Origin: Promethearchaeota archaeon
GTDB taxonomy: Archaea; Asgardarchaeota; Lokiarchaeia; Sigyniarchaeales; SOKP01
Direction of reading: 5' to 3'
Assembly (NCBI GenBank): GCA_030606485.1
Contig: JAUWGH010000004.1
Span: forward strand, 329,392 to 393,391
Length of the DNA stretch: 64,000 nucleotides
Below are positions 489 through 37,500 of this stretch, in pieces (the first letter of the stretch is position 1; each line of letters opens with the position of its first letter). The notes under the pieces were generated by a model. That model saw only the letters and a program-made list of their open reading frames with translations. It was not told the origin of the DNA and ran no database searches. Position numbers and translations under genes: made by a program.

Positions 489-3400
489 TTATTGAAGTTC
501 TTGTAGCACATTACAAATTATTGAGTCTTGAGACATCTCACATCTAATTTTTAAAAGGGCTATTATTCTCTTTTTAATATCTTCTTTTTCATATTTTGCC
601 GTTCTTAAAAAGATTTTTGCAACAGATCTTTGTGCATTTATTGGAGTATCAGAAGAAAGTAGCTTTAAAAGAGTAGATAATAAATTTTTAATTCCAATTT
701 TATTTATTAATTGAGAAACTGATATAACAGTTTTTTCTCGGACAGAATCTGATGGATCGTTAAGTAAGTCAACGATGTAAGGGAAAATTTCATCCAAATC
801 TTCTAAACTATAAATTTTTATCAATTTGATTGAAGATTCCCGAACTCTTTCATCATTATCTCTTAAGTTTTTTGAAATTTTATTAAACGGAATTAATTTT
901 GGGGATATATTCGGAATTTCAGTTAATATTTCCATTGAACTCCTGCGTACCCATTTTTGATCATCATCAAGCATTTTAATAAGTTGATTTAAAATGATAT
1001 CATAATTCTTGATATCTTTAATCAAATTTCCCAAACTTTTTATAACAGCATCTCTAACTACCCATTCATCATCAGATATTGAATCTATTAGTGCATTGGC
1101 TGCTTTATCGGGAACTTTATGTCCAATATAAAATAAAACATTAGCTGCTGATTCCCGTACGAATGGTTCCTTATCTTTTAATAAATTGATGATAGGGTCA
1201 ATAGGTATTATTTCGGGGGACTTTTTAGCAATATTGATAAGTGATTTAGATAAAGTTATTTTAACTGATTTTTCTTGTGCAATTATGGTGTTTAAAAAAA
1301 CAGAAATTAAAGGTTTAACGTAATTGGGCTTTCTAATCGCAATAATTGAGATAATCTTAGAAGCTTCTGTTTTAAATTGCTTATTTCCCTCAGTTTTTAA
1401 AATATTTATAAAGGGATCAATGCTTATTAAATCAATATAATCTTCTGCTAATTCAGATAATGAATTAATTGAAGTTAATTTAATATGTTCTAGATCTGAA
1501 TTCAAATTTACTAATAATTTTGGGATAAAAAGTTTAGGATTTTCTTTAACGATATTAATTATAGTTTTGGTTATTATACCTTTTGTGATAAATTTTGCTG
1601 AGTCAGGGATTGTTATCAATTTACTAAAAACCATCTCAGGATTTTGCTTTCCAATATTAATAATCATATTGGAAATGCTATTTTTTATCAGTTCATCATC
1701 TGATTTAATATATTTTAATAAAATATCTGTGATTTTTTCAGGATTTGTCTCCCAGATTTTTCCTAATAATCTAAGAATGCTATATTGAATTTCGAATTTT
1801 GATGAAGCCATCTTACTTAATAAATAATCCAAATTAAGAGCGGTTGGAACTTCATCATGGTATTTTTCTAATGCTTTTATTGCAGAATTCCTAACTGCTT
1901 CATTAGGATCTAAGAGACCATCTAAGAAAGGTTTTATTGGAATAAAATATTCTTTAAAATTCCCAATTTTAGCTATTGTAGTAAAAATTTCAGTCCTAAC
2001 CTCTTTATTTGGGTCATTCATTAGGGATATTAATTCATTAACTGTACTTGAATCTAAATCGTCAATACTAATTCCTTGGAGAGAAAATGCTGCTGCAGCT
2101 CTTACATTCTTATTTGGATGCTTCAATTTTTCAATAACTAAGGCTAAAGGAAATTTTTTAGGGGATTTTATTAAAAATTTAAGCGTTTCTTCTTGAACCT
2201 TATAATCAGAATCTTGTAATAAATGTTCAAACTCTGTTAGTGCAATATAGTTTAAACTTTTGCTAGGAATTCTTGATAAAACCATAATTGCATAATATTT
2301 TATATGCCATTCAGCATCTTTGATTAATGGTAAAAGAACATTGATTGGAATCTGACTTATTAAGTTTTCATTTGCTTTAATTAATGTTTCTAAGATGGGA
2401 ATTTTCTTATCATAATTTGGGCTTTTTAATCCTTCAATTATCCATGAAAGTATTGCATCTGGAGCATCATTTTCTAGTTGAACCAATATTTCAGTTGAAA
2501 TTCTTTTAGAATTAGAACTAGGATCACATATACCATCAAATAATGCATTTTTATATTTATTACTTGTAAGGTCGATATCACCCTTCCGAGGTATTCTTTC
2601 AAACATTAATTTTATTGTTTCCTCTGCATGATCCCGTATTCTTTTATCTGAATTTTTAATAAAATTGAATAAAGGGATAGGATCAAAAGTTTGCCCTGAT
2701 TTTGTTATCATTGAATATCTAAGATTTTGAGTAAATTCATTTTTTAAATTGATTATATAGAATAAAATAAAAGATAACAAAATAACCTCTTCAATAATTG
2801 CTGCTGGAACAAATTCTATAAACCTAGTATTTATTGGTTGCGTGAAAATCCAAGAATTAAAAATATTTTCTAATTTATTAGCATTTACTATTAAAAAATT
2901 GATTAAAACATTTAAACCAACAGCTGCAATTAAATACCCTGCAAAATACACATCAATTCCTCTGTATTTAATTTTTCGCCCCCAAAATCTGGTAAAATAA
3001 CCAATGATCCCAAAGATCAATACTATAATGACCATCCAAGCATAGGACATGGTTGATATTGCCATTGAACCCGAAAAGTAGTAATTTACAGTTTGTATAA
3101 ATGAGATCCATGTCCAAACAAATACAAATAACATAACTCCCAGAATAATTCTAGGGGCTGGATCTCTGCCAAATTCTTCCATAGAACGCTTACCATTTTC
3201 AAATCCTAGAAAGAAATATCTATTTAACTCAGGCAGATGATAATATACATTACTTATTCCAGCAACATACCCTTTTGCGCCGTAGAATGTTAAAATCATT
3301 AGGGGATAAATTAACATCCATGACATCCAAATAATAACAACAGGACCATTTGTGATTAACCATATCATAATAGGGGGAAATAAAAAAAACATAAAATATA

Positions 3401-3872
3401 AAAGAACTGCAACAAGGAGAGAATAGGGTTTTGGAAATCGATTTATGATTTTTTTTCCAATAAATTCATGAAAAGGAGTTAAACCTTCACTCTTTTTCTC
3501 AGTCCATGCAATAAATATAAAATCAAAGAGGGGATACCCTGAAATATAAAAGAGACTTGCAATCATAGGAAGAATTAATACATAAGGTGGGATCTCTGGG
3601 GGTGATACTCCTGATTGCCAAAATTCAGGAGTTTCGATAATAAAAATAACAATCATTGCAATAATAGTTATTGTTGCTAATCCAAAGATTAAACCGTAAA
3701 TAACACACACAAACCGATCCAAAATTGAAAATTCTCCTTTTTTAACAATAGAAACCTGTTTGTATATAAGTAAAAATCCGAAAATACTCGTGCCAATGTA
3801 AAAAATTAATAATAGAATGGAAATTTCATTCCATAAATTGAATAGATCTCCGAACACCCCCATATTAGACAC
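489..3872 (-). CDS. Large membrane-anchored HEAT-repeat protein
   Basis: A 1127-residue protein with two halves. Residues ~1-380 carry about nine to ten hydrophobic segments that look like membrane helices. Residues ~400-1127 are a long run of ~38-residue alpha-helical repeats of HEAT type, with recurring patterns such as 'D..VR..A...L..I' (for example DPNKEVRTEIF, DPNEAVRNSAI, DDDQKWVRRSSM, DPSDSVREKTV). HEAT solenoids are protein-binding scaffolds, so a membrane-tethered adaptor is the simplest inference; no catalytic motif is visible. The gene lies just upstream of mcm on the same strand (211-base gap) and diverges from the GINS-like gene. The ATG at 3872 gives an N-terminus that enters the first hydrophobic segment within a few residues. 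No specific family was recognised. Confidence 0.85.
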   Translation of the reverse strand: MSNMGVFGDLFNLWNEISILLLIFYIGTSIFGFLLIYKQVSIVKKGEFSILDRFVCVIYGLIFGLATITIIAMIVIFIIETPEFWQSGVSPPEIPPYVLILPMIASLFYISGYPLFDFIFIAWTEKKSEGLTPFHEFIGKKIINRFPKPYSLLVAVLLYFMFFLFPPIMIWLITNGPVVIIWMSWMLIYPLMILTFYGAKGYVAGISNVYYHLPELNRYFFLGFENGKRSMEEFGRDPAPRIILGVMLFVFVWTWISFIQTVNYYFSGSMAISTMSYAWMVIIVLIFGIIGYFTRFWGRKIKYRGIDVYFAGYLIAAVGLNVLINFLIVNANKLENIFNSWIFTQPINTRFIEFVPAAIIEEVILLSFILFYIINLKNEFTQNLRYSMITKSGQTFDPIPLFNFIKNSDKRIRDHAEETIKLMFERIPRKGDIDLTSNKYKNALFDGICDPSSNSKRISTEILVQLENDAPDAILSWIIEGLKSPNYDKKIPILETLIKANENLISQIPINVLLPLIKDAEWHIKYYAIMVLSRIPSKSLNYIALTEFEHLLQDSDYKVQEETLKFLIKSPKKFPLALVIEKLKHPNKNVRAAAAFSLQGISIDDLDSSTVNELISLMNDPNKEVRTEIFTTIAKIGNFKEYFIPIKPFLDGLLDPNEAVRNSAIKALEKYHDEVPTALNLDYLLSKMASSKFEIQYSILRLLGKIWETNPEKITDILLKYIKSDDELIKNSISNMIINIGKQNPEMVFSKLITIPDSAKFITKGIITKTIINIVKENPKLFIPKLLVNLNSDLEHIKLTSINSLSELAEDYIDLISIDPFINILKTEGNKQFKTEASKIISIIAIRKPNYVKPLISVFLNTIIAQEKSVKITLSKSLINIAKKSPEIIPIDPIINLLKDKEPFVRESAANVLFYIGHKVPDKAANALIDSISDDEWVVRDAVIKSLGNLIKDIKNYDIILNQLIKMLDDDQKWVRRSSMEILTEIPNISPKLIPFNKISKNLRDNDERVRESSIKLIKIYSLEDLDEIFPYIVDLLNDPSDSVREKTVISVSQLINKIGIKNLLSTLLKLLSSDTPINAQRSVAKIFLRTAKYEKEDIKKRIIALLKIRCEMSQDSIICNVLQELQ

Positions 3873-10181: not shown

Positions 10182-10652
10182 ATGTTATCAAATAATAAAC
10201 TAAAAAGAGTCCTTAAAAATAACGGTGCCGAAAATATTGCAGAAGAATCAATTAACTTAATTAACGAAATTGTTTCCAAAATTTCGGAAGAAATAACTTT
10301 AATTGCTGTTAAATTAACCCATTTCAAAGGTACAAAAACATTACAGAAGGATGCAATAAAAGTGAGTTTAAAAACCTTTCTGGGAAGAGATCCAAAAAAA
10401 TTGGAAGTCAAAACATTCAATATTTCAAATATTAGAAATATTTTAGCGAAAAGTGGTGCAAAAAGGGTTTCAAAAGAAGCTATTGATTATATGAATAAAG
10501 TAATCACATGGATTGCCGAAGAAATTGCACTAAACGCTGTTATTTTGACACATACAAACCAAAAAAAATTAGTAGAAGAGGACTCAATAAAATTCGGTTC
10601 TCAAAAGTTTCTAGGTAAAGATATAGAACAAAACAATGTGGAGAGTGTTTAA
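10182..10652 (+). CDS. Doublet archaeal histone (two fused histone folds)
   Basis: A 156-residue protein made of two histone folds in tandem. Fold 1 (residues ~5-66) reads LKRVLKNNGAENIAEESINL ... ISEEITLIAVKLTHFKG and TKTLQKDAIK. Fold 2 (~82-142) reads IRNILAKSGAKRVSKEAIDY ... IAEEIALNAVILTH and KKLVEEDSIKF. Both match the HMf pattern 'I.k.aGA.RVs..A...l...i..ia..i...A...a.h...K.v...DI'. Fold 2 keeps the Arg-Val-Ser of loop 1; fold 1 has AENIAEE instead, so the halves have diverged. Fused doublets form an intramolecular dimer in other archaea. It is the first gene of a tight operon; the next gene starts 3 bases after its stop. Being encoded with an SMC-like ATPase suggests a specialised rather than bulk chromatin role. 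Confidence 0.88.
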   Translation: MLSNNKLKRVLKNNGAENIAEESINLINEIVSKISEEITLIAVKLTHFKGTKTLQKDAIKVSLKTFLGRDPKKLEVKTFNISNIRNILAKSGAKRVSKEAIDYMNKVITWIAEEIALNAVILTHTNQKKLVEEDSIKFGSQKFLGKDIEQNNVESV

Positions 10653-10655
10653 AAA

Positions 10656-11477
10656 ATGGAAGATATGTTTATAGCGCATGAAAAAACAATTTGTCATGTA
10701 ATTTGTGAAGCTATGCGAAGTGAAGATTTCGAAATATTAAGGGGAATACAATCCTTTGATTTATCTCCATGGATGGGTCTAAGAGGTGTTGAAGTTATTG
10801 TAACAGTTTTAGTCGATTTAACAATAGCTTCGAATCCTTTTAGATTTAATCTAGATTCCGAAGCAGAAGAGATCTACAATGAATTTGGTATATATGATAT
10901 AATAAGGAAGAAATTTGAATTAGAAACAGAAGGCAAAATTCCTTATTCAATATTAAGATATCTATTAGGCGATTTGAAAAAAAAACAACAAAAATTAAGT
11001 AAATTAGCATCGTTTGGTTTAGTTAATATTGAGCCAGCTGATCAACCAATAGGTGATAACAGTTTAATATCCCTTACAGAAATTTGGGAATCACTATTAG
11101 AAATGATAATTAATGATGAATTAGAGTTAAAATTATTTGTTAGCTCTTTAGGAAAAATGCTTGCGATAGGTGTAGGAGAGAAAGGGATAAGATTCATAAA
11201 ACCAATTATTATAGCAATAAATCGAGCAGAAAGCAATGAAAATGAAATATCTCTAGAGGAATTTCTTAATATATATCTTGATATGGGATTACCTTACTAT
11301 TATTTTCCGATTTCAATAAGAACAGATGAGAAAAAGAGCGAAATAATTAGATTAATAGCGTATAAAAATAATGAGAAAGTAATTTTTAACTTACATTCAG
11401 TTAGAGCTTTGCAAATTTGGCGGACAGCTGCACAAAATTATTTAATTGAACAAAGAAGATTAAGAAGTGGTCTGTAA
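10656..11477 (+). CDS. Island protein A1, first of two tandem paralogues (273 aa)
   Basis: A 273-residue protein with no recognised family. It aligns along its whole length with the next gene. Shared landmarks in order: LRGIQSFDLS near residue 30, a G-[KE]-IP motif near 105 followed by a helical segment that looks like a winged helix (LGDLKKKQQKLSKLASFGLV), a helical block around SSLGKMLAIGV, and a C-terminal segment ending VIFNLHSVRALQIW. The alpha-helical character, with a possible winged-helix centre, suggests a DNA- or protein-binding adaptor. The start ATG lies 3 bases after the histone stop and its own stop is immediately followed by the next ATG, so translation is probably coupled. Confidence 0.75.
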   Translation: MEDMFIAHEKTICHVICEAMRSEDFEILRGIQSFDLSPWMGLRGVEVIVTVLVDLTIASNPFRFNLDSEAEEIYNEFGIYDIIRKKFELETEGKIPYSILRYLLGDLKKKQQKLSKLASFGLVNIEPADQPIGDNSLISLTEIWESLLEMIINDELELKLFVSSLGKMLAIGVGEKGIRFIKPIIIAINRAESNENEISLEEFLNIYLDMGLPYYYFPISIRTDEKKSEIIRLIAYKNNEKVIFNLHSVRALQIWRTAAQNYLIEQRRLRSGL

Positions 11478-12299
11478 ATGGTAATTGAAGGAATAGAGTA
11501 TAAATATTTGATTGAATCATTTGGAGATCTCATCTATGATGGATTAAACAGTAGTAATGATCGTCTTTTAAGAGGAATCCAAACCTTTGATGTATCAACT
11601 TTTTCACACCTTGAAGGAATTGAATCGGTTTTGTCTGTTATGTTTGCATTAACTGTTGATGGGAAAATTGAAGCGGATGATCTTGAAAGAAGGTTAAAAG
11701 ATGATAAAGATTATTACGAAAAAACAGGAACATTAGAAAAAATGAAAGAACGATTGAAGAGAAAGAAAAATGGAGAAATTCCTTTCTTTTTTATCAAAAA
11801 TGCATGTAGTGGATTGAAAAGTGTAGTCAAAAATTTATTTTTACTTAAAGAGCATGGCTACATTGAAATAATTGGGAAAGACATTGATAATTCTTTTCTT
11901 AAATTAACATCTAAATGGGAAAAATTTATTGAAGATACAATAAAACGCGGTTATGAAGCAGAGATATATGGCAGTTCTATTAGTAGAATGATAGCATCAG
12001 GCATATTGCAAAAAGGGTTTAGGTTAATATTTCCGATTGCTTCTGCATTAATGATTGCCGAAAAATCTAAGGGAGAATTGAAATTAGAGAAATTCAAGCA
12101 ATTATTTGAAGATAGTGAGTTAAAATACCGACATTTTACGAATGTAATAGAAAGAGATCAAAAAAAGCCCAAAGATATACAGTTAATACATCATTTAGGT
12201 GATAAAAAAGTGATTTTTAATACTGCTTCGATATACGCTATAAAACAATGGATAAACTTAGCAGAAAAATTAAAATTAAAAATAGGACGAACTATATAG
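11478..12299 (+). CDS. Island protein A2, second tandem paralogue (273 aa)
   Basis: It has exactly the same length as the preceding protein and matching landmarks: LRGIQTFDVS near residue 32, GEIPFFFIKNA near 100, a helical LKSVVKNLFLLKEHGYIEII that resembles a winged-helix unit, SSISRMIASGILQKGFRLIF, and a C-terminal VIFNTASIYAIKQW. Overall identity looks low but colinear, so this is an old duplication. Its ATG follows directly on the stop of its paralogue with no spacer. The two may form a heterodimer; that is inference from gene order. No enzyme motif is visible. Confidence 0.75.
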   Translation: MVIEGIEYKYLIESFGDLIYDGLNSSNDRLLRGIQTFDVSTFSHLEGIESVLSVMFALTVDGKIEADDLERRLKDDKDYYEKTGTLEKMKERLKRKKNGEIPFFFIKNACSGLKSVVKNLFLLKEHGYIEIIGKDIDNSFLKLTSKWEKFIEDTIKRGYEAEIYGSSISRMIASGILQKGFRLIFPIASALMIAEKSKGELKLEKFKQLFEDSELKYRHFTNVIERDQKKPKDIQLIHHLGDKKVIFNTASIYAIKQWINLAEKLKLKIGRTI

Positions 12300-12315
12300 A
12301 GAGGATTATGATTTA

Positions 12316-13035
12316 ATGTCAAGGCATACTGAAGAAACCTTTAAAATTTTTGCACCTAATGAGATAAATAAGGGTAGAAATGATGTCATTGGTGAAGAAT
12401 ATCAAAAAATATTAGAAGATGTTAGAAAGATAATACGGTTTCAGCAGAAATACCATATAGAAGATGGAATTCCTGGGTTTCTTTTCCATGGTGATGTTGG
12501 ATTAGGGAAAACTCTAATTGGAAAAATAATAGCTAAAGAACTTAATAGTCATATGATTTTTATTGATGGTACGGATATTGCTCGTTCATTATATGGACAG
12601 TCAGAACAACAAATTTCCATACTTTTTCAAAAAGCAGGCCAATTTAGACATTCTATTATCCTAATTGATGATTGTGAATCAATTTTTCCAAAAAGAGATT
12701 GGATTAAAGGTGAATCTTGGCATCTCGCTCAGAACAATGTGTTTTTTCATCGATTAGACGAATTGGATACTTCTAAAATATCAGTAATTTTAACCACTAA
12801 TAGATATGACTTAATAGATAAAGCAATTAAAGATAGATTGCATAATATAGAATTTCCTTTACCTAGTAAGGAAACTCTAATCGAAATCGCAAAAAAAATG
12901 TGTTTAAAATTAAATTTAGAATTTGACGATATTAGATCAAAAATTGAGTTTGAAAATATTAAATCTATGCGGACATTAGAGAAAACTGTTCTATCGCTTT
13001 ATATAGATAAAATTCTTAAGAGTGAAAGTATTTAA
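12316..13035 (+). CDS. Single-domain AAA+ ATPase
   Basis: A 239-residue protein consisting of little more than one AAA+ module. Walker A is GDVGLGKT (residues ~56-63). The Walker B strand is IILIDDCES, where the catalytic Glu of the usual DE pair is Asp. Sensor 1 is VILTTNRYD, and an arginine-finger-like segment is DRLHNIEFPLP. The layout resembles Cdc48/proteasome/FtsH-type AAA modules, with a short C-terminal helical lid and no N-terminal substrate domain. ATP-driven remodelling of a partner is the family role. It is the fourth gene of the histone operon, 16 bases after the paralogue pair. The Asp in Walker B may slow hydrolysis, but the protein otherwise looks intact. Confidence 0.85.
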   Translation: MSRHTEETFKIFAPNEINKGRNDVIGEEYQKILEDVRKIIRFQQKYHIEDGIPGFLFHGDVGLGKTLIGKIIAKELNSHMIFIDGTDIARSLYGQSEQQISILFQKAGQFRHSIILIDDCESIFPKRDWIKGESWHLAQNNVFFHRLDELDTSKISVILTTNRYDLIDKAIKDRLHNIEFPLPSKETLIEIAKKMCLKLNLEFDDIRSKIEFENIKSMRTLEKTVLSLYIDKILKSESI

Positions 13036-13048
13036 AAAAGATATAAAA

Positions 13049-13077
13049 AATAGTCCCGACGCAGCGTCGGGACTATT
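13049..13077. repeat. Perfect GC-rich inverted repeat inside the operon
   Basis: Two 14-base arms (left arm AATAGTCCCGACGC, 13049-13062; right arm 13064-13077) are exactly complementary around a single centre base at 13063. The core is far richer in G+C than the surrounding DNA. It occupies most of the 56-base gap between the AAA+ gene and the next small gene, ending just before that gene's ribosome binding site. No T-run follows, so it does not look like an intrinsic terminator. It may be an RNA hairpin tuning expression of the downstream half of the operon, or a palindromic protein site. Confidence 0.8.
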
Positions 13078-13091
13078 GAAAGGTGAAAAAA

Positions 13092-13442
13092 ATGACATTT
13101 ATATTAGTTCATTGTATGGAAAACAGCGTCCAAAAGATGATATGGGATTGGAAAAAAGGACGACACAGAAAAAATTTGCAATCCTATTTTATTGAAAAGC
13201 TTGACGCGAGAACTTTCCTGATGGAAGCAAATGGAGAATTATTAACTTTATTATGGTCCTTAAAAAAAAGATTTAATAATAAATTAGATATATTTATTAC
13301 AGAACCAATTTATGAAAGAGATTTGCCAAAAACTGTAAAAGAGGTTGTAAAATGTCTAGAAGAAAAACCAACAATGAGAAAAGAACTCGAGAAAGTAAAA
13401 AATTTGAAAATAAGATGCTCAGTGAATTTGAGCATGGAGTAA
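13092..13442 (+). CDS. Small island protein B1 (116 aa)
   Basis: The chosen start is the ATG at 13092. A Shine-Dalgarno-like AAAGGTG lies just ahead at 13079-13085, and the in-frame GTG at 13083 falls inside that site. The product (MTFILVHCMENSVQKMIW...) has a mixed N-terminal half and a helical, charged C-terminal half (VKEVVKCLEEKPTMRKELEK). No family was recognised. Its last 91 bases overlap the next gene in another frame. It lies between the AAA+ ATPase and the SMC-like ATPase, so it may be a small subunit of either. Confidence 0.6.
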   Translation: MTFILVHCMENSVQKMIWDWKKGRHRKNLQSYFIEKLDARTFLMEANGELLTLLWSLKKRFNNKLDIFITEPIYERDLPKTVKEVVKCLEEKPTMRKELEKVKNLKIRCSVNLSME

Positions 13443-13549
13443 AAGAATTAATAGATAAACACCAAATATTTAAAAAGAATCTATCAAAAAAAGTTGAGGA
13501 TGAATTAGAAAAATTAATTAATAATATTGTGGCGATTTATTATGAGTAG
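13352..13549 (+). CDS. Small island protein B2 (65 aa), overlapping gene
   Basis: A 65-residue, strongly charged helical protein (MSRRKTNNEKRTRESKKFEN..., then SKKVEDELEKLINNIV). It starts inside the preceding gene (91-base overlap, different frame), preceded by AGAGGTTGT as a possible ribosome binding site. Its final codons overlap the start of the SMC-like gene by 8 bases. The product could be a coiled-coil partner of the SMC-like ATPase, or the downstream half of a frameshifted product. No family was recognised. Confidence 0.5.
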   Translation: MSRRKTNNEKRTRESKKFENKMLSEFEHGVKELIDKHQIFKKNLSKKVEDELEKLINNIVAIYYE

Positions 13550-15398
13550 TAATATTATGAGAGTAAATTTTGAAAATGTTGGAGTCTTTAGAGGTCCACA
13601 TTCATTTGATTTTGAAAAAGGTTTAAATCTTCTAAGAGCTCCTAACGCAAAAGGAAAAACTAGTTTCACAAGGGGCCTGGAATTATTTTTAATTCCTTCT
13701 TCAGAATTAAAAGGGAAGGGCTATTACATGAACCTTTTCGCAACGGCTCCGGATGAAAAGCTTGAGGTAGAATTAACTATTAGTAATCAATCATGGATAC
13801 GTAGATTTAGAAGACCTCAAAATAGTAGAAATTTGCTAGGAGTTTCGGAAGAGCCATTCGGATTAAGAGGAATTAATTTGTCTCAAGTATGTTTTGCAAC
13901 TCCAGAAAACAAGTTAATGAATTCAATTCTATACGGTAAATCAATAAGAGGATACATGGAAGATATTTCAGGTAGTAATTCTTATGAGGTTATTATTAAA
14001 TCTCTAGTAAATTTTCAACGAAATTATAATCGACAATACCAAAAATACAAAGATGATTTAATACGATTGGATGAAACAAAAAGATCTTTAAAGAATGATT
14101 TTGAGGAAAAAGAAAAATATAGAAAAGAACTAAAACAACTTCCTGAGGTTGATGAAGAACAATTCTTAGAAAGTAAGGAAATTCGAGATCAATATTTCGC
14201 TAAAAAAAGCAAAAAGGAACAATTAGATAAAATAATTAGAGAGGAAAAAGGGCAACTTGAGAGCCTTGATGAACAGATTAAGGACTTAAAAATTGATATT
14301 AAAAGACAAACAGAATTAATCTCTGAAATTGAAGAGGACCATCCAAAAATCACACAAAAAATCGAAGATTTAAAAGATTTAATGGATAATCAGAATAAAT
14401 CAAAGAAAGAAATTCAACAGGAATTATCAAAAATTGATGATCAATTAAAATCAATAAATGATAACTGGGTTAAAAGAAAAAAATACGGAGAAGAGAAATG
14501 TTATGCTTGTGGTAAGCCATTAACTCTAAAAGAACTTCAAGATTTTGAAAAAAGTCTAGAAAATACTAAAAAAGATTATTCACAAGAATTAAAAAAAACA
14601 AAGAGACAAATTGAGGATTTAAAAGATGAAATCAACGAATTGCAAATTCAAGAGAGAGAATTGAGCATTCAACGAACTAATTTAGCTAAGAATGAAAAAA
14701 GTTTAGCGAGAAGAGAATTAGAACGTGATAAAATTAATAAAGATCTTGACTCTGATTTACTAGAACAGAAATCGCATCAGAAAGAAATCGATAAATTATT
14801 AGAAAATGTTAGTGAGGAAATTATTGAAATTAAAAAAAAAAGAGAGAAACTTGAAGATAGAATCCAAATTATTGAATCTAAAATAAAAGTCACACAAAAA
14901 AGAGTTAAAGAATTGGAAAAAGAAACAAAAGGCGCTGAAGTACTTACAAATAAGATTGAATTTATTGATGAGAGTATTTCTTATTTAAAGAAAAGGAAGG
15001 AGCAAATCACTGAGAAAGCAGCAGAAAAATTTAACGATAAAATCAACGAAATATATAATCAACTTGGTTTTACTGATTTTAAAGAAATTGGAATTAAAGA
15101 AGACTATAATATTTACATCTCTAGAGAAAAAGATGGTAAAATTTTATCAGATTGGCCATTGGAGGCATTATCTACTTCTGAGCGATATACAATTGGTGTT
15201 GTTCTATTAATTGCGGCTAAAGAAGAATATTTACCAGAATTTCCTTTATTCGTAATTGATGAAATTATTACGAGTTATGACCAAGATCGTATGCAAAAAT
15301 TAATAGAATATGTAGCGAATGTATCTGATTATGTTATAATCACTCAATTAGCTCCTGAAAGTTCTATAGATGAATTAACAGTAGAACATATTTCATAA
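13542..15398 (+). CDS. Compact SMC/Rad50-like ATPase with zinc hook
   Basis: A protein of ~618 residues. The N-terminal ABC half-head carries Walker A APNAKGKTS (residues ~33-41). Long coiled-coil arms (~170-480) surround a central CYACGKPL (C-x-x-C) at about residue 320, almost exactly mid-length, as in the Rad50 zinc hook. The C-terminal half-head has a signature-like LSTSERYTIGV and Walker B LFVIDEI followed by TSYD. It is far shorter than Rad50 or true SMC and resembles the archaea-specific SMC-related proteins; that link is from memory and not tested. Such ATPases dimerise by their heads and hooks to hold or process DNA. The ATG at 13542 overlaps the previous stop by 8 bases; a TTG at 13527 and an ATG at 13557 are alternatives. 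No Mre11-like nuclease gene is adjacent. Confidence 0.85.
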   Translation: MSSNIMRVNFENVGVFRGPHSFDFEKGLNLLRAPNAKGKTSFTRGLELFLIPSSELKGKGYYMNLFATAPDEKLEVELTISNQSWIRRFRRPQNSRNLLGVSEEPFGLRGINLSQVCFATPENKLMNSILYGKSIRGYMEDISGSNSYEVIIKSLVNFQRNYNRQYQKYKDDLIRLDETKRSLKNDFEEKEKYRKELKQLPEVDEEQFLESKEIRDQYFAKKSKKEQLDKIIREEKGQLESLDEQIKDLKIDIKRQTELISEIEEDHPKITQKIEDLKDLMDNQNKSKKEIQQELSKIDDQLKSINDNWVKRKKYGEEKCYACGKPLTLKELQDFEKSLENTKKDYSQELKKTKRQIEDLKDEINELQIQERELSIQRTNLAKNEKSLARRELERDKINKDLDSDLLEQKSHQKEIDKLLENVSEEIIEIKKKREKLEDRIQIIESKIKVTQKRVKELEKETKGAEVLTNKIEFIDESISYLKKRKEQITEKAAEKFNDKINEIYNQLGFTDFKEIGIKEDYNIYISREKDGKILSDWPLEALSTSERYTIGVVLLIAAKEEYLPEFPLFVIDEIITSYDQDRMQKLIEYVANVSDYVIITQLAPESSIDELTVEHIS

Positions 15399-15418
15399 TG
15401 TTTTGGAGGTTTTAATTC

Positions 15419-15580
15419 ATGTCTCAAAATATTAGTGTATCTAAAGTTGTTAAACTTGGTAATAGTTTGGCTATGGTTCTTCCGAAAGAGATGTGTGAAG
15501 AATTAAATATTAAAAAGGGAACTTATCTCGGTATTCAATTAGTAGGAGAGAATATAATAATTAAAAAGGTTTTGAAATAA
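15419..15580 (+). CDS. AbrB/MazE-type transcription regulator (53 aa)
   Basis: A small protein with the swapped-hairpin AbrB pattern: SVSKVVKLGNSLAMVLPKEM, then ELNIKKGTYLGIQLVGENII and a basic end. 'GNS.a..LPk......~.kGd' is typical of SpoVT/AbrB and MazE-like DNA-binding domains. A strong GGAGG lies about nine bases ahead of the ATG. It follows the SMC-like gene by 20 bases, so it is probably co-transcribed and may autoregulate the operon. A MazF-like toxin is not seen next door, which argues against a classical toxin-antitoxin pair, although the following gene is unknown. Confidence 0.8.
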   Translation: MSQNISVSKVVKLGNSLAMVLPKEMCEELNIKKGTYLGIQLVGENIIIKKVLK

Positions 15581-15613
15581 ATTAGTTGGTGTAAATAGAA
15601 GGAAAATTTAAAA

Positions 15614-16306
15614 TTGTGGGTTTGTTTATTGACTTTATTTAAAGATATACTACCAAATGATAATGTGTTTATATGGCTTGGTTCTTTTGATAATACACAA
15701 GTGAATAATGTTTTAGTTTTAGCGGGAGGCGAAGTATTAATTTTAAAAACAATCAGAAGATTTGATTTAAATCAAGAGCAAATTCGTAAAGATCTTTTAG
15801 AAATGTCTATAAAAGAATTCATAGATGCTTATGATTTGATTGAATTTGAATTAATAATAAATGATTTTGAAGGAGAGTTAAATAATAACAAAGAAGATTA
15901 TGAAAATAAAGTAATTGAAATTATAGAAGATATAAAGGAAGGAGTTATAAATAAAAAATATCCTCCTTATATGGCAGGATTTAATGAATATTACATAATA
16001 GAATTTAAAAATATGATAAATAAATATCTGCATAAATTATCTAATTTATCAAATTCTAAAGATGCAATTAATCATCTCGAGGATGTAATAGATGAATGTG
16101 AAGAAAGAATTCAAAAAATTAAGAAGGAACATTTGAAAAAAGAGGTTTCTATGTTAGAAAAAATAAAAAAAATAAGTAAATCCCCAGGATTTGATGAATT
16201 ACACAAAATTCAAAAAGAAATTGACGAGGAAGCAAATAATCTTAGGAATAAAATTCGTAGAGCGACAAAGAAGTTTGAGGAACTTAAAAAGCTATTTAGT
16301 AAATAA
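15614..16306 (+). CDS. Coiled-coil island protein (230 aa)
   Basis: The last gene of the operon, 33 bases after the AbrB-like gene. Residues ~1-60 form a mixed alpha/beta segment (NDNVFIWLGSFDNTQVNNVL, VLAGGEVLILKT). The remainder is helical and charged, with a long predicted coiled coil from ~145 to 230 (DECEERIQKIKKEHLKKEVS and onward). No family is recognised. The start is uncertain: TTG 15614 gives the longest product and has AGAAGGA about ten bases upstream. A role as an accessory or kleisin-like partner to the SMC-like ATPase is possible but unsupported by motif. Confidence 0.6.
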   Translation: MWVCLLTLFKDILPNDNVFIWLGSFDNTQVNNVLVLAGGEVLILKTIRRFDLNQEQIRKDLLEMSIKEFIDAYDLIEFELIINDFEGELNNNKEDYENKVIEIIEDIKEGVINKKYPPYMAGFNEYYIIEFKNMINKYLHKLSNLSNSKDAINHLEDVIDECEERIQKIKKEHLKKEVSMLEKIKKISKSPGFDELHKIQKEIDEEANNLRNKIRRATKKFEELKKLFSK

Positions 16307-18656: not shown

Positions 18657-19813
18657 CTAATTATTATTTGAATTTTTTTTCATTTTATCCAGAATTGGTA
18701 ATAATTCAGGAAATAAATAAGAAACCTGTTCATAAATAGATTCTGCTTTCTTATGGGATTTTCTTTTAAGATGTGCAAAATGAAGTTATTCAAGAATATT
18801 AGGATCAAATTTATTTTCTCTAGATGCATTTAAGCAAAAATCTTCTAATTCTTCCTATTCCTCTTGTTTTTTCAAAATATCAACAATGAATAGAAATATT
18901 TCAGGAGATCGCTCATTAAATTCAATCCAACACTTTAATGCATAAATTTTTGCACTATCAAAGTCATTTTGAAGAAAATATGTTTTAGCATTATATTCTA
19001 AAAAAAATGCTTTAAAATGAAAAAATTTCTATTTAATTCAATAATGCTCAAGGCTTTATCAATAAATACTTTTGCTTTTTTTAAATTCTGGTTAATATCT
19101 ATATAATATTTCAAAAGATTCATATGTGTAATTAAATCAGATTCATATAATTCAAGAATCTTTTCTGCGGTGCTGAGAAATTTTTGATACATCTGATAAC
19201 CAAAATATGAGAGTTGCATATTATGCAACATATCAATATCATTAGACCGAAATTTCAAATATTTCTCACCCCATTGAATTGATGCTTCACTTTTTTTTAA
19301 CCTCGCTGTGATCTTATAAAGCATTCGGAAAATTTCAAGTGCTTGGTCAGTATCTTCTTTAATTTTTTTTAGTTCAGAATTTAGCTCTTCCTCCATTTCT
19401 TTTAATGATGGTTCATCCATTGGTAGATCTTTCCAAGTAGTTGAAAAGCCTTTATCATATTCTAAAAATTTTCTCATGAAATAGTGTTCAAAATCGGTTA
19501 AATTTCGCATTTGGGTAAAATCTAACTTCAAATTGAATCCTTTTATGATATCAACAATAATTCTATAACCCTCATCGCTTAATTGAAAATTGAAATTCTC
19601 GAATATGAGTTCTTGTAGAACACCTCTCTGAGTTCTGAATTCAATTTCATAAAGAAGCATTTCATAAATCATATCATTTGGCATTAAAAACCAAGGTTCG
19701 TCCTTATTATCTCTTATTGGAAAGAAGCCACGTATCTCTCGCCATTTTTTTAATGCGTATTCCAGATTGACATTATCAATTTTAAATTTATTTCTAAAAT
19801 CCTTCTGGAGCAA
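18657..19813 (-). pseudogene. Decayed TPR-like protein gene
   Basis: Codons from 19813 to 18998 encode 271 residues with helical repeat character (GEKYLKFRSNDIDMLHN, KFLSTAEKILELYESDLITH, NLKKAKVFIDKALSI), typical of TPR proteins. The frame ends early near an eight-A run at about 19000. In another frame the coding sense resumes (KTYFLQNDFDSAKIYALKCW ...) down to 18657, broken by TAG at 18857-18855 and TAA at 18788-18786. One frameshift plus two stops make this a genuine pseudogene rather than a single sequencing error. The apparent start at 19813 is a TTG at a junction with an unrelated plus-strand fragment, so the original N-terminus is lost. Confidence 0.7.
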
Positions 19814-32570: not shown

Positions 32571-33497
32571 TTATTGTTCGCCTTCAAGTTGAGAAATTAT
32601 TTGTTTTTTCATTTCTTCAACGTTTGTTGAGAAACCGAAAGTTTCAGCGAATTTTTGGTTTGTAGTTAACTCGTGAGATCTTCCTTTTTTAATGGCGTTA
32701 ATAAATTCATTATCTAATAACCATTTAACATGTTCATAAGCGCCAGAACCACGTATTTTAACAAGTTTTGATTTCAGAATTGGTTGTTTTAGGGCAATAA
32801 TAGTTAATGTTCGCATTATTCTTTGGGGAATAAGGCCTCCAGCAGCAAACCTTGCAACTTTTTCGGAATATTCGGGTTTAATTTGCATACTATATTTATC
32901 TCCAATTTGAACGATTTCAATTGCAGTGGTTCTATCCAGAAATTCAAATGCGAGTTCATTGATTATATTTTTTATTAAATCTTGTTTAATCTCTAATTTT
33001 GAAGAAAGTTCTTCAAGCCCAAGTGGACGACCTGCGACAAATAAGGCGGCTTCAATTTGATTTTTGTGAAAATCTAAATCAAGTCTTTCTTTTCTTTCTT
33101 CATCCGATAATTCTTGAATTTCTGGTTCAACTCTATTAATTTCTTCTTTTATCAAGAATTCATCTATTGGTTTAACTTCTTCTTCTGTAGATTCATCTGT
33201 TGATTCAACTTCATCTGCTCCTATAGATTCATCTATTAATTCAATTTTATCTTCTGCTGTAGATTCATCTATTGATTCAATTTTATCTTCTTCTATAGAT
33301 TCATCTATTAATTCAACTTCATCTTCTTCTATAGATTCGTCTATTAATTCAGCTTCATCTTCTGCTGTAGATTCATCTATTAATTCAACTTCTTCTTCTG
33401 TAGATTCATCTATTAATTCAATTTCATCTTCTTCTAAAGATTCATCACTAGATTTATCTTGCTCTAATTCATTATTTTTATTATTTTCTTCTTCCAT
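32571..33497 (-). CDS. scpB: Segregation and condensation protein B with acidic repeat N-terminus
   Basis: From the internal ATG at 33497 the product has 308 residues; a longer frame reaches ATG 33569 but would overlap scpA by 29 bases and adds a basic segment outside the domain. The C-terminal ~175 residues are the paired winged helices of ScpB: IEAALFVAGRPLGLEELSSK, YSMQIKPEYSEKVARF, TLTIIALKQPILKSKLVKIR and a final LTTNQKFAETFGF. The N-terminal part consists of about eight imperfect acidic repeats of the type ELIDEST/SIEED. ScpB binds the kleisin ScpA in the SMC condensin complex. It is the third gene of smc-scpA-scpB. The acidic tail is unusual for the family. Confidence 0.88.
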   Translation of the reverse strand: MEEENNKNNELEQDKSSDESLEEDEIELIDESTEEEVELIDESTAEDEAELIDESIEEDEVELIDESIEEDKIESIDESTAEDKIELIDESIGADEVESTDESTEEEVKPIDEFLIKEEINRVEPEIQELSDEERKERLDLDFHKNQIEAALFVAGRPLGLEELSSKLEIKQDLIKNIINELAFEFLDRTTAIEIVQIGDKYSMQIKPEYSEKVARFAAGGLIPQRIMRTLTIIALKQPILKSKLVKIRGSGAYEHVKWLLDNEFINAIKKGRSHELTTNQKFAETFGFSTNVEEMKKQIISQLEGEQ

Positions 33498-33540
33498 GCA
33501 TATCAAAAATTTTTTTTTTATTCTAATAATTCTTTGTTTG

Positions 33541-34530
33541 TCATTTAATTGTAATTGAAATATCTTCAAAATCTTCTGCTTGAAATATATTTATTTTATT
33601 GGAAGTTCCTAAGAACATTAATGAAAGGAACATCCTAACAAGAGCAAACTTACGGGAAATTGTATCCTCTTGTTCATTTTTTATTAAATTTAAAAGTTCA
33701 AAAAATGAGATATAATCAGTATCATTAAGATCTAGGGAAGCTTTAATTTTGTTATACCATCCATCGATCAATTCTTCAATCGTTTGTTCTTTTCCTGTAA
33801 TATGTTTTAATAACTCTTTGGGTAATCTTGCTTTTGATTTTTTAAATTGTACCAATTGTTTTGCTTCTTCTCTTCGTTCACGTGCGCGTCTTAATTTTTC
33901 TCGTTTTTGCATTGTTTCTAAAATTGCAGATCTCATTGCAGAAAAGAGTTCTTCCCTAGTAGCGACTTTCTTTTTTGGTTGAATTGGTTGAGAAAATGCT
34001 TTTGGAATTGAACGTCTAGTTCGTTCCCTTAATTCTTGTATTTCTTGTTCTTGCTGTATTTTTTGTTCATGTTCAATGACATCCTTTATTTTTGTATGAT
34101 GAATAGTTGCTGCACCTAAAATTGCCATTCCAGAAATTCTAAAATTAATAAAATCTTCTTTAAGCATCTTTTCAAAGAATTTATGAATTATGGGTGTGAA
34201 ATCTTGATTTAAAAATGTTGAATCCTTTAATAACTCCGGATCCAATAGTGAATTATATGGAGGTTTTTGCCAGAATTTTTTATCACCTTCAATTTTTTTT
34301 TTCATTTCTTCTGTTATTTCTTCTGATAATTCACTATCTTCTTCAAATTCTGCGATTAATTCTTCTTTAACTTCAATTTCCTTTTGGATTTCAGGCAATG
34401 GTTTTTCAATTGAATTTATTTGATCATTAGTTGATTTCGAAATGTTTGGGGTTTCATCTTTAGGCTTTTTAGGGCATTTATGTTGAGATAGCCTTTGAAA
34501 GATTTTTCCACAATAAGGGCATTTTGGCAT
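33541..34530 (-). CDS. scpA: Kleisin ScpA with N-terminal zinc finger
   Basis: A 329-residue protein. Residues 1-25 form a C2H2/C2HC-like knuckle (CPYCGKIFQRLSQHKC), then an acidic linker (~30-85). The kleisin follows: NSLLDPELLKDSTF and DFINFRISGMAILGAATIHH near the N-terminal SMC-binding helices, a charged middle with many Arg/Lys/Glu, and a C-terminal winged helix ending SRKFALVRMFLSLMFLGTSN and EDFEDISITI, the typical ScpA ending. ScpA bridges the two SMC heads. Its start is 22 bases after the smc stop. The zinc-finger fusion at the N-terminus is not part of ordinary ScpA. Confidence 0.85.
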   Translation of the reverse strand: MPKCPYCGKIFQRLSQHKCPKKPKDETPNISKSTNDQINSIEKPLPEIQKEIEVKEELIAEFEEDSELSEEITEEMKKKIEGDKKFWQKPPYNSLLDPELLKDSTFLNQDFTPIIHKFFEKMLKEDFINFRISGMAILGAATIHHTKIKDVIEHEQKIQQEQEIQELRERTRRSIPKAFSQPIQPKKKVATREELFSAMRSAILETMQKREKLRRARERREEAKQLVQFKKSKARLPKELLKHITGKEQTIEELIDGWYNKIKASLDLNDTDYISFFELLNLIKNEQEDTISRKFALVRMFLSLMFLGTSNKINIFQAEDFEDISITIK

Positions 34531-34552: not shown

Positions 34553-37500
34553 TTAAGTTTCCTCCAATTCCAATATTTGTTTAGCTTCTTTTTCTAAATC
34601 CACACTAAAAACATCTGTAATTCCACCTTGCATTGAAACACCGTATATTCTATCTGCGTTTATAATATTTTCCTCACGGTGACTAATAACTAAAAATTGA
34701 GCTTGTTTAGCGAATTCCTTAATAACAATCGAGACACGATGAACATTAGGCCCATCAAGTGCAGCATCTATCTCATCCATAATATAAAATGGTGCAGGAT
34801 AAAATTCTTGGACGGCAAAAATGAAAGATAATGCAACTAAAGCCTTTTCTCCGCCACTTAAAATTTCAAGTGAACTAATTTTTTTACCTCTTGGGCGAGC
34901 TTCTATGTCAATTCCTCCTTCAAAAGGTTTATCTGGCCGTTCTAATATCATTTTAGCCGAACCACCCGGTGATAATTTTTGAAACACACTTGAAAATTGT
35001 CTATTAATCTCATGGTAAGCTTTCATAAAATTTCTAGTTTTTTCTAATTCAATTTTATCAATAGAGTCAAGAATCGCCTTTCTTTCTCTTTGAATGGTTT
35101 GTCTTCTCATATCTATTTCATCAAATCGCTCTTTAACGTCATCATATTGATCAATAGCTTTAAGATTTACTGGTTCAAGTTTCTTCTTAGCATTTTGCGT
35201 TTCGATAATATCAGTTTGAAGTCCTTGTTCTGTAAGTTCTTCAGTTACTGGTGGAAGAGCCCCATAATCTTTACCTCTTTCATAAAGAGTTTCAATCTGA
35301 TCAGTTGTAATGATTTTTTTTGATTCAAGATTATTCAATTTGGAATGTTCCATCGATAAATCTGCTTTTAGGGAGGAAATAACATTTTGCATTTCTTTTT
35401 GTTTTTTCCAGGATTCATCTTTTTTAATCACTATCTCATCGATTTCTTTTTGTTTTTCTATTTTTTCATTATTTACTTCGGTAAGAGTTTCATTAATTTT
35501 TTCGATATCTTTTTTAATTTGTTCAATGAGTTGATTAGAATTTTCAATTTCTTCTGCTAAAGTTTTAATTTGTTGTTCTCGTTCTTTATTTTTAGATAAT
35601 TCATTAAAGTCTTTTTGTTGTTTCTGTAAATTTTTATTCATATCTTTCAAGTGTTTTTGAATTTCCTTCTGCTTATTGAATTCCTCATCTTTATGGTTTT
35701 TTAATTCATTAATTGTAATTTGTTCCTCATCGATTTGCTTTTGAATTTCTGCTTGAGAAATAGTTTGTTCCTCAATTTTTTTATTATTATCATCGATTTT
35801 ATTATTCGAGTCAACATTTTCAGTTTTTAATTCTTCAATAGAATCTATGAGTCGCTGAATATTTTGTAGAGCTCTCAAATCATCAGTTATTAATTCTAGA
35901 TTTTGATTTTCTGAATCAATTTGTTTTTGTAATTGTGCTGTTTTTCCCCAGAATTTTTCTTTCTCTAATTTTAAATCGTCAATTTTGTTTTGATGTGCTT
36001 CTAATTCTTTTTTCCTTGTTTCAATGCTTTTATTTGTTGCAATAATTTCATTATTCTTTTCTACAATTTCTTTTTCAATAGATTTAATATTTTCCTCAAT
36101 TTCAGTTATATTTTCCAATAAATTTTGTATCCCTTTGAGATCTTGTAAATTCTCTAGAACATTATCAAGTGCTTTTTGACTATTATCAATTTTATCTTGA
36201 ATCTCTTTCTTTATAGTCCAAAACTGTTTTTTCAACTCTTTAATATTTTCTTGTTCTTTATTTAATTGTTCTTTCTCTTTGTTTTTCTCATCAATAAACT
36301 TATTTTTTTCAGTGATCTCGTTTTCAAATTGTATAATTTTATTTTTTATTTCTTCTGATTGAGAAGAGAAGTCATCTAATTTTCTTTTATCCTCTGATAA
36401 TTTTTGTTCGAATGATTCCTTTTTTGAATTAAAAACAGTTAGTTTTTGTTTATGATCATTCAATTCATTTAATTGGGAATTAATACTTTCAGAAATTTCT
36501 TCTAACTCTTTATATAAATCTTGACTTTTTGATAATGTTAATTTTCTTAAAGCAAGATAAACATTTTCTAATATTTCCATTAAATCTTGGACGAAATCGT
36601 CAATATTGGAGGTTGATTCTTGGACAGCAATGTCTGTAGATTCTTTTACGGATGTAAGTAATTGAGAAATTGAAGAGTCTGCATTTTCAATATATAAATT
36701 CAAAGTTTGAGTGAAAGAATTCAATGAACCACGAATATTCTTATCAGATAATTCCTCCTTATTAATTTCTTCTATAATTTTCATCATTTCAACAATATCA
36801 TAGATATATGTTTTAAAATCTTCAGCAGATGTTGAAATTGCTTCAAAATTTGATTCTTGAATTGCAGCTTTTATAGATTCAACAGAAATATGTATATTTT
36901 GGGTTAATATATTTAAAATTTGTAAAATTCCTGTTAAATTTTCTTTATTTTGATCATAATCTTCTTCAGAGACCATAATTCGGTCTAAAAGGGCTTCTTT
37001 CTCCTTATTCAATTCATTTATTCTTTTGTTAATATTTTCTTTCTTTTTAGAGAGATTAATAACATTAGAATTTGTTTCATTCAAGTCCTCGGAAAGTGAC
37101 TTTATTTCTAAGTTAAGATTTTTAATTTCTCGCTTAAAATTTTTTTGATTCTTTTGGAGAATTCTTAATTCAGTTTTATTATTAGAGATCCTGGTATTAT
37201 ATTCATTAATTTCAGATTCTAATGTATTTTTTTTCATTTGAATTAATTCATAACTCTGTTCATTTTTTTTAAAAGTATTTTCTTCTTGCAAAAGTTGTTT
37301 CTTAATATCTGCTATATTCTTAATAAAATCATCTTTCTCTTTCATCAATTCTATTATCCTTACTTGAACTTCCTTTCCTTCACTCAATCTTTTGAATTCT
37401 TCTTCAATTTCAGTTTTCTTTTTATTGAGTGTATTGATTTGGTTTTTATTCATTTTTATCTCTGTATTTAAAGACGAAAAAGATGAATGTAAATCAGAGA

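Follow-up and report, generated by a model that had tools for sequence, protein, structure and literature searches.

Histones and SMC-type ATPases, the two great organisers of DNA, are normally encoded apart. In a 64,000-nucleotide stretch of the 3.75-Mb genome of a Promethearchaeota archaeon (contig JAUWGH010000004.1; hereafter the window), we found eight co-directional, tightly packed genes on the + strand (10182-15580) encoding a histone doublet, two paralogous proteins (A1 and A2), a single-domain AAA+ ATPase, proteins of 116 and 65 aa, an SMC-like ATPase of the ASRP family and an AbrB/MazE-type DNA-binding protein. Comparison of related loci showed that the histone, A, AAA+, small protein and ASRP form a set shared by two archaea that are very distant from each other. 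As to mechanism and function, we infer, tentatively and with somewhat less than even confidence, that the eight genes specify an ASRP-based machine, accessory, driven by ATP and free of nuclease, that has a histone of its own and would probably compact or silence foreign DNA without cutting it. If a conserved operon links a specialised histone with an SMC-related clamp, direct cooperation of the two organisers could be put to the test in a small system, in Asgard archaea. The ASRPs, so far viewed as single proteins, would also come to include multi-subunit cassettes, and several of these adjoin defence-type or DNA-modification-type genes. No description of a histone-ASRP-AAA+ operon was found in the titles, abstracts and passages searched, a body of literature without preprints and most subscription journals.

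The whole unit was conserved in G018, a Lokiarchaeota metagenome-assembled genome (MAG) of the same family as the window genome and of another genus, whose cassette (locus L015) carries all eight genes in the same order with 65-86% identity. The ratio of non-synonymous to synonymous substitutions (dN/dS) between both copies ranged from 0.08 to 0.38 across the eight genes (0.17 for the histone and 0.16 for the ASRP) and the compared frames contained no stops. These ratios indicate that the eight genes are under purifying selection and therefore are not chance open reading frames (ORFs). The small protein entered this comparison from position 13119; its start codon is ATG in the window and would be ATT in G018. 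A third locus, L069, presented a singlet-histone version in the same order: histone (84 aa, its ORF overlapping A), A, AAA+, a 132-aa ORF and ASRP. L069 is a 4.8-kb contig binned in a MAG titled Candidatus Nitrosotalea (G227), a binning that may be wrong, given the CdhD fragment at the end of the contig. Since its ASRP is only 37% identical to that of the window, L069 is no close relative.

Phylogenetic analyses placed the histone within the unit. The histone was the first operon gene in the window, G018 and L069, and the three histone-bearing ASRPs formed one clade (100/99) in a tree made of ASRP-like proteins only, as did the AAA+ proteins of the same loci (90/87). Because the histone-bearing loci group in both trees, it is well supported by these comparisons that the histone belongs to the unit, and they speak against an adjacency by chance. 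The first-pass annotation of the window had taken chance adjacency to be the answer if homologues of the SMC-like gene were never found near a histone elsewhere; G018 and L069 both carry one. In the histone tree, which left aside two further chromosomal matches (L150 and L159), one branch separated the cassette histones from 18 chromosomal histones, weakly (79/79) and with L069 on a long branch, while the doublet halves alone grouped at 96/87.

The histone itself (10182-10652, 156 aa, basic with an isoelectric point, pI, of 9.55) matched NF043032 with 75.7 bits (cut-off 50) in two stretches and PF00808 with 52 bits (cut-off 21.4). Inspection of the alignment by eye revealed His in 15 and Asp in all of the 18 chromosomal histones at the positions that we take to be the dimer-dimer contact residues of HMfB, and neither residue in any of the five cassette folds. 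The cassette histones thus lacked the combined His and Asp contact by which chromatin stacking was judged and, because both residues are missing, the protein should bind DNA as a self-contained pseudo-dimer, without stacking into fibres. A further idea, that each doublet half keeps a different half of the canonical DNA-binding site, was weakened, since the Loki chromosomal histones depart there too. Histone doublets, with two folds in one chain, have been reported in Asgard archaea (PMC13088155), and the same layout is shared with the M. kandleri-type and Halobacteria doublets. In contrast to the acidic doublets, whose cluster has a median pI of 4.7 (PMC13260811), the window doublet is basic and operonic. 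It resembles the RdgC-histone operons in that a variant histone stands first in a conserved multi-gene operon, whereas the partners in those and in the IHF-histone operons are RdgC-like or IHF-like and not SMC-related (PMC11390915).

The ASRP gene (13542-15398) encodes 618 aa from the ATG at 13542, or 623 aa from a TTG at 13527. Its product matched NF045487 with 306.9 bits against a cut-off of 300 (2.9e-91); the G018 ASRP scored 310.5 bits and that of L069 281.4 bits, below the cut-off. An N-terminal Walker A, a CxxC hook and a C-terminal Walker B with its glutamate (VIDEI) were read in the sequence, and the hook cysteines C320/C323 were invariant in seven ASRPs. ASRP was described in 2022 as a zinc-hook family including ClsN and Sph (PMC9389158). 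What had been put forward as a candidate new system is therefore new in its assembly, while its ATPase is of a known family: the window shares with ClsN/coalescin, Sph and Sph3-RdfA the ATPase itself, with its above-cut-off NF045487 match and zinc-hook motif, and differs in its partners, since described haloarchaeal ASRPs pair with RdfA (PMC10869688) and that of the window with AAA+, A1/A2, a histone and small proteins. When a seven-row ASRP alignment was searched against 227 genomes of the phylum, 15 had a match above 100 bits (17 places); at E 0.001, 154 of the 227 gave at least one match, many of the matches being weak and lying in long, SMC/Rad50-sized frames. The window also encodes SMC (34556-38983, PF02463) and ScpB (32574-33569, PF04079), so that the proposal of a second system beside smc-scpA-scpB agreed with Pfam for these two genes, whereas the putative ScpA (33544-34530) had no Pfam match.

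A1 (10656-11477) and A2 (11478-12299), of 273 aa each, are paralogues with about 30% identity. In the A1 model (pLDDT 83.9), the order of helices and strands reads as two predicted winged-helix-like units followed by a long C-terminal helix. Its structure matches were of a general winged-helix kind, with many tied rows, all at Z below 8; the tied rows included an Nse entry (7dg2, Z 6.9) and a Jet entry (8dk1, Z 6.6), which bear on the KITE subunits of SMC complexes, whose fold is a tandem winged helix as in ScpB, Nse1, Nse3 and JetB, and the centromere-binding protein AspA (Z 6.3). Foldseek gave no match for A1 with E up to 0.001. Other candidate relatives of A were discarded: the single sequence match to a solved structure (E 0.97) was taken as noise, RdfA showed no profile similarity (probability 0.1) and the cysteine-bearing protein that takes the place of A in eight other cassettes was a weak match (hhalign P 0.014, probability 3.1).

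The AAA+ protein (12316-13035, 239 aa) matched PF00004 (3e-23) and its nearest solved chains were VCP/CDC48. A match to the Zot family (22.2 bits, cut-off 20.3) lay far below the AAA score (83.2) and was taken to reflect a common P-loop. Relatives of the AAA+ protein at L103, L104 and L136 had no ASRP within the sequence fetched. The small protein (13092-13442) is homologous to small proteins adjoining other ASRPs. Its start is most likely the ATG at 13092 (116 aa) and not 13083, where the listed ORF of 119 aa begins, because the alignments of homologues begin at the former. Six genomes of the Asgard family f25 (L057-L062) carry an ASRP with a 125-131-aa homologue of this protein and, at those loci, no AAA+, A or histone; because these homologues adjoin ASRPs without AAA+, the 116-aa protein is probably an ASRP subunit. 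Many Cas2 rows appeared in its Foldseek search (best of any kind E 0.013), and a Cas2-like fold was not used given the poor model (pLDDT 62.8). The 65-aa gene (13352-13549) overlaps both the small-protein and ASRP genes; ORFs of 45-56 aa occupy its place in several other cassettes, and no ORF of at least 45 aa was found there in L069. The 53-aa AbrB/MazE-type protein (15419-15580) matched PF04014 (7.1e-12) and was conserved in G018.

In order to place the unit among related loci, we compared 26 distinct ASRP loci scoring above 100 bits, after exclusion of two duplicates and five weaker loci. AAA+ lay upstream on the same strand at 18 of them, some of which had been discovered through the AAA+ protein, and at 9 of the 17 loci discovered by ASRP search alone. 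The AAA+ alignment, scanned against the genome collection, returned 21 loci, L069 among them. The A protein occurred in six cassettes (G000, G018, G103, G227/L069, G228/L070 and G281/L132). AAA+ profile searches of 222, 392, 389, 58 and 11 genomes (overlapping draws) revealed no histone cassette beyond the three among the stronger-match neighbourhoods, which were opened; about 14 matches of 90-105 bits in the 392-genome search and one in the 389-genome search were left unopened. Of 97 relatives searched with A2 alone, a set that included 61 genomes of the same family, 2 had a match, both within the family, where the other 59 had none; many of the genomes searched are incomplete. This patchy occurrence marks the unit as accessory. 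Plasmids yielded 52 records with an ASRP, of haloarchaeal type and from Methanohalobium, with 22-24% identity among the matches listed, and the three neighbourhoods opened contained RdfA, not AAA+ or A. On a Haladaptatus plasmid, the gene at L169 530-697, about 2.7 kb away from RdfA-ASRP, is annotated as DUF1931, a family that we take to have the histone fold.

Several cassettes had neighbours of a particular kind. A LmuB-like gene adjoins the G018 cassette (1.4e-31) and the G103 copy has a SIR2 gene at a distance of 2 kb. According to Pfam, phosphoadenosine phosphosulfate (PAPS) reductase genes stand beside the related AAA+-ASRP cassettes of L018 (BrxP 1.9e-46) and L137 (BrxP 1.8e-11), possibly reflecting DNA sulfur modification, while TGT-like (PF01702) and DUF5591 genes follow the ASRP cassette of L017 (8127-9787), possibly reflecting DNA base modification. 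Taken together, these neighbours point to genome conflict. By eye, AAA+-ASRP or ASRP cassettes also adjoin PAPS-reductase genes at L134, L019 and L056, and L054 (11742-13405) resembles the TGT/DUF5591 arrangement of L017. Beyond the LmuB-like gene of G018, the last 68 residues of smc (L015 5109-5336, 79% identical) are present beside scpB; a search of 1.57 Mb from the two ends of contigs, with most interiors outside it, did not recover the remainder of the gene, which is either broken or misassembled. A segment beside the G018 cassette (L015 15600-17599) has copies of 88-98% identity in several other G018 contigs, and the tandem repeat at the end of the cassette contig reappears where contig 23 begins.

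Comparison with known systems separated the cassette from each of them. Lamassu likewise combines small partners with an SMC-like ATPase that has a zinc hook and a length of about 620-650 aa, and LmuB models matched the window ASRP, at 3.9e-16 as against 2.9e-91 for the ASRP model. However, no LmuA effector was matched by any of the nine genes or by the gene upstream of them (E up to 1), LmuB generally carries a Walker B glutamine (PMC10586767) where the window ASRP keeps glutamate, and the window cassette adds a histone and an AAA+ protein. Pbe, in which an SMC-like protein with 66-aa and 152-aa proteins halts virus replication without cutting (PMC6459918), resembles the window in its small partners (65 and 116 aa here) and may serve, by analogy, as a precedent for a non-cleaving block of virus replication. 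The PbeC model matched the window cassette weakly (5.8e-8), and PbeA, PbeB, PbeD and dnd had no match among ten cassette-region proteins and four window neighbours, so the unit is not a PbeABCD-DndCDEA system. Wadjet/MksBEF shares an SMC-family ATPase with winged-helix partners, the A1-Jet/Nse matches being general only (Z 6.6-6.9); in contrast, the window ASRP has a zinc hook and a short coiled coil, and no match to the kleisin JetA, the Toprim nuclease JetD or Toprim domains in general was found in the cassette. The window AAA+ matched IetA models at 1.4e-13 and NF042959 at 37.7 bits, far below its cut-off of 510, with no match to the IetS protease; the AAA+ of L018 matched IetA at 2.7e-60.

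Pfam, defence and curated models identified no nuclease among the cassette proteins. Because of this and because the ASRP keeps its catalytic glutamate, compaction or silencing is favoured over cleavage. In such a machine, two ASRPs would join through their zinc hooks and clamp DNA, with the 116-aa and 65-aa proteins as putative subunits; A1 and A2 would pair as a winged-helix adaptor placed on DNA or at the ASRP heads, the AAA+ ring may load, unload or remodel the clamp, the histone would bind or bend DNA for the machine and AbrB would be the regulator. Foreign DNA would thereby be recognised and packed away uncut. We counted in support of this reading the purifying selection, the histone-first order, the two clades, the separate histones, the patchiness, the conflict-type neighbours and the Pbe precedent. 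Other observations weigh against it. The histone is present at 3 of the 26 ASRP loci, so that the earlier proposal of a dedicated histone stands for a stable member of this unit, in order and in both the ASRP and AAA+ clades, and not as a general rule. Three of the six A-bearing cassettes (G103, G228 and G281) have no histone: PF00808 had no match anywhere in the available G103 and G228 genome sequences, and G281 has two histones elsewhere in its genome. Moreover, the ASRPs whose function is known serve to fold the chromosome or shape the cell (PMC9389158, PMC10869688), and the ASRP and small protein of the f25 genomes look like a host-serving gene. The four scanned neighbours of the window copy had no PADLOC family match and the nearest scanned ones no Pfam match; the viral-contig scans gave two weak AAA+ matches and no cassette beyond these, and no ASRP was found in phages.

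A stricter version of the silencing machine, in which the histone is an obligate subunit and a clamp with its own AAA+ ring uses or deposits this non-stacking histone on invading DNA, seems to us somewhat unlikely; if true, SMC-driven episome silencing would have a counterpart in archaea, among the relatives of the eukaryotic host lineage. We consider it unlikely that the ASRP complex and histone fold or segregate the host's own chromosome, as ClsN does in Sulfolobus. The action of ClsN and Sph3 relatives on chromosome domains and cell shape (PMC9389158, PMC10869688), the retention of ASRP with the same small protein in the six f25 genomes and the broken smc adjoining the G018 copy would fit such an organiser, but the unit is patchy (A2 went unmatched in 59 of 61 family genomes), the window genome already has SMC and ScpB, and conflict-type genes neighbour several related cassettes.

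The same patchiness would suit a maintenance or partition module whose clamp and histone pack and segregate the DNA of an integrated element, as would the dispersed repeats beside the G018 copy that are matched in several other contigs, the smc cut beside that island and the presence of centromere-binding AspA among the many tied winged-helix matches of A. Against this account, which we regard as quite improbable, the scanned part of the flanks yielded no recognisable integrase, relaxase or replication protein, and the plasmid ASRPs listed were distant and, in the three neighbourhoods opened, accompanied by RdfA instead of AAA+ or A. Least probable of all, in our judgement, is that the histone is a mere regulator or passenger, a small DNA-binding operon controller outside the machine. 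The cassettes without it would agree with this, as would L132, where another small ORF precedes A (65 residues, ribbon-helix-helix-like by eye, with no such Pfam match). Nevertheless, the histone was retained while the ASRP diverged to 37% identity, its dN/dS is close to that of the ASRP and AbrB is already available as regulator.

Regarding the layout of the operon, the ORF list agreed with the nine co-directional genes of the first-pass annotation, spaced by 0-56 bases or overlapping (in order: 3, 0, 16, about 56, overlap, overlap, 20 and 33 bases). Profile matches and comparison bore out its doublet histone, paralogous 273-aa pair, AAA+, SMC-like ATPase with CxxC and AbrB protein. Its inclusion of the ninth, coiled-coil gene (15614-16306, 230 aa) did not hold: this gene had no match in the G018 copy and, therefore, the conserved unit ends at 15580. 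An AT-rich stretch of 309 bases separates the operon from the upstream gene. Between the AAA+ and small-protein genes lies a perfect hairpin (13049-13077) of 13 pairs (z -6.3), whose core was found once in the window. It is kept in G018 (L015, about 12659-12683) with 11 pairs (z -3.1, 2 of 200 shuffles as good) and, by eye, two compensating pair changes relative to the window hairpin. Elsewhere in the window, a 271-aa gene (18998-19813) without Pfam or PADLOC match was present in one of five genomes of the genus, its own, and a 1127-aa protein (489-3872) carries many HEAT repeats with Cnd1-like matches (PF02985, PF12717) and, by eye, membrane-like helices at its start.

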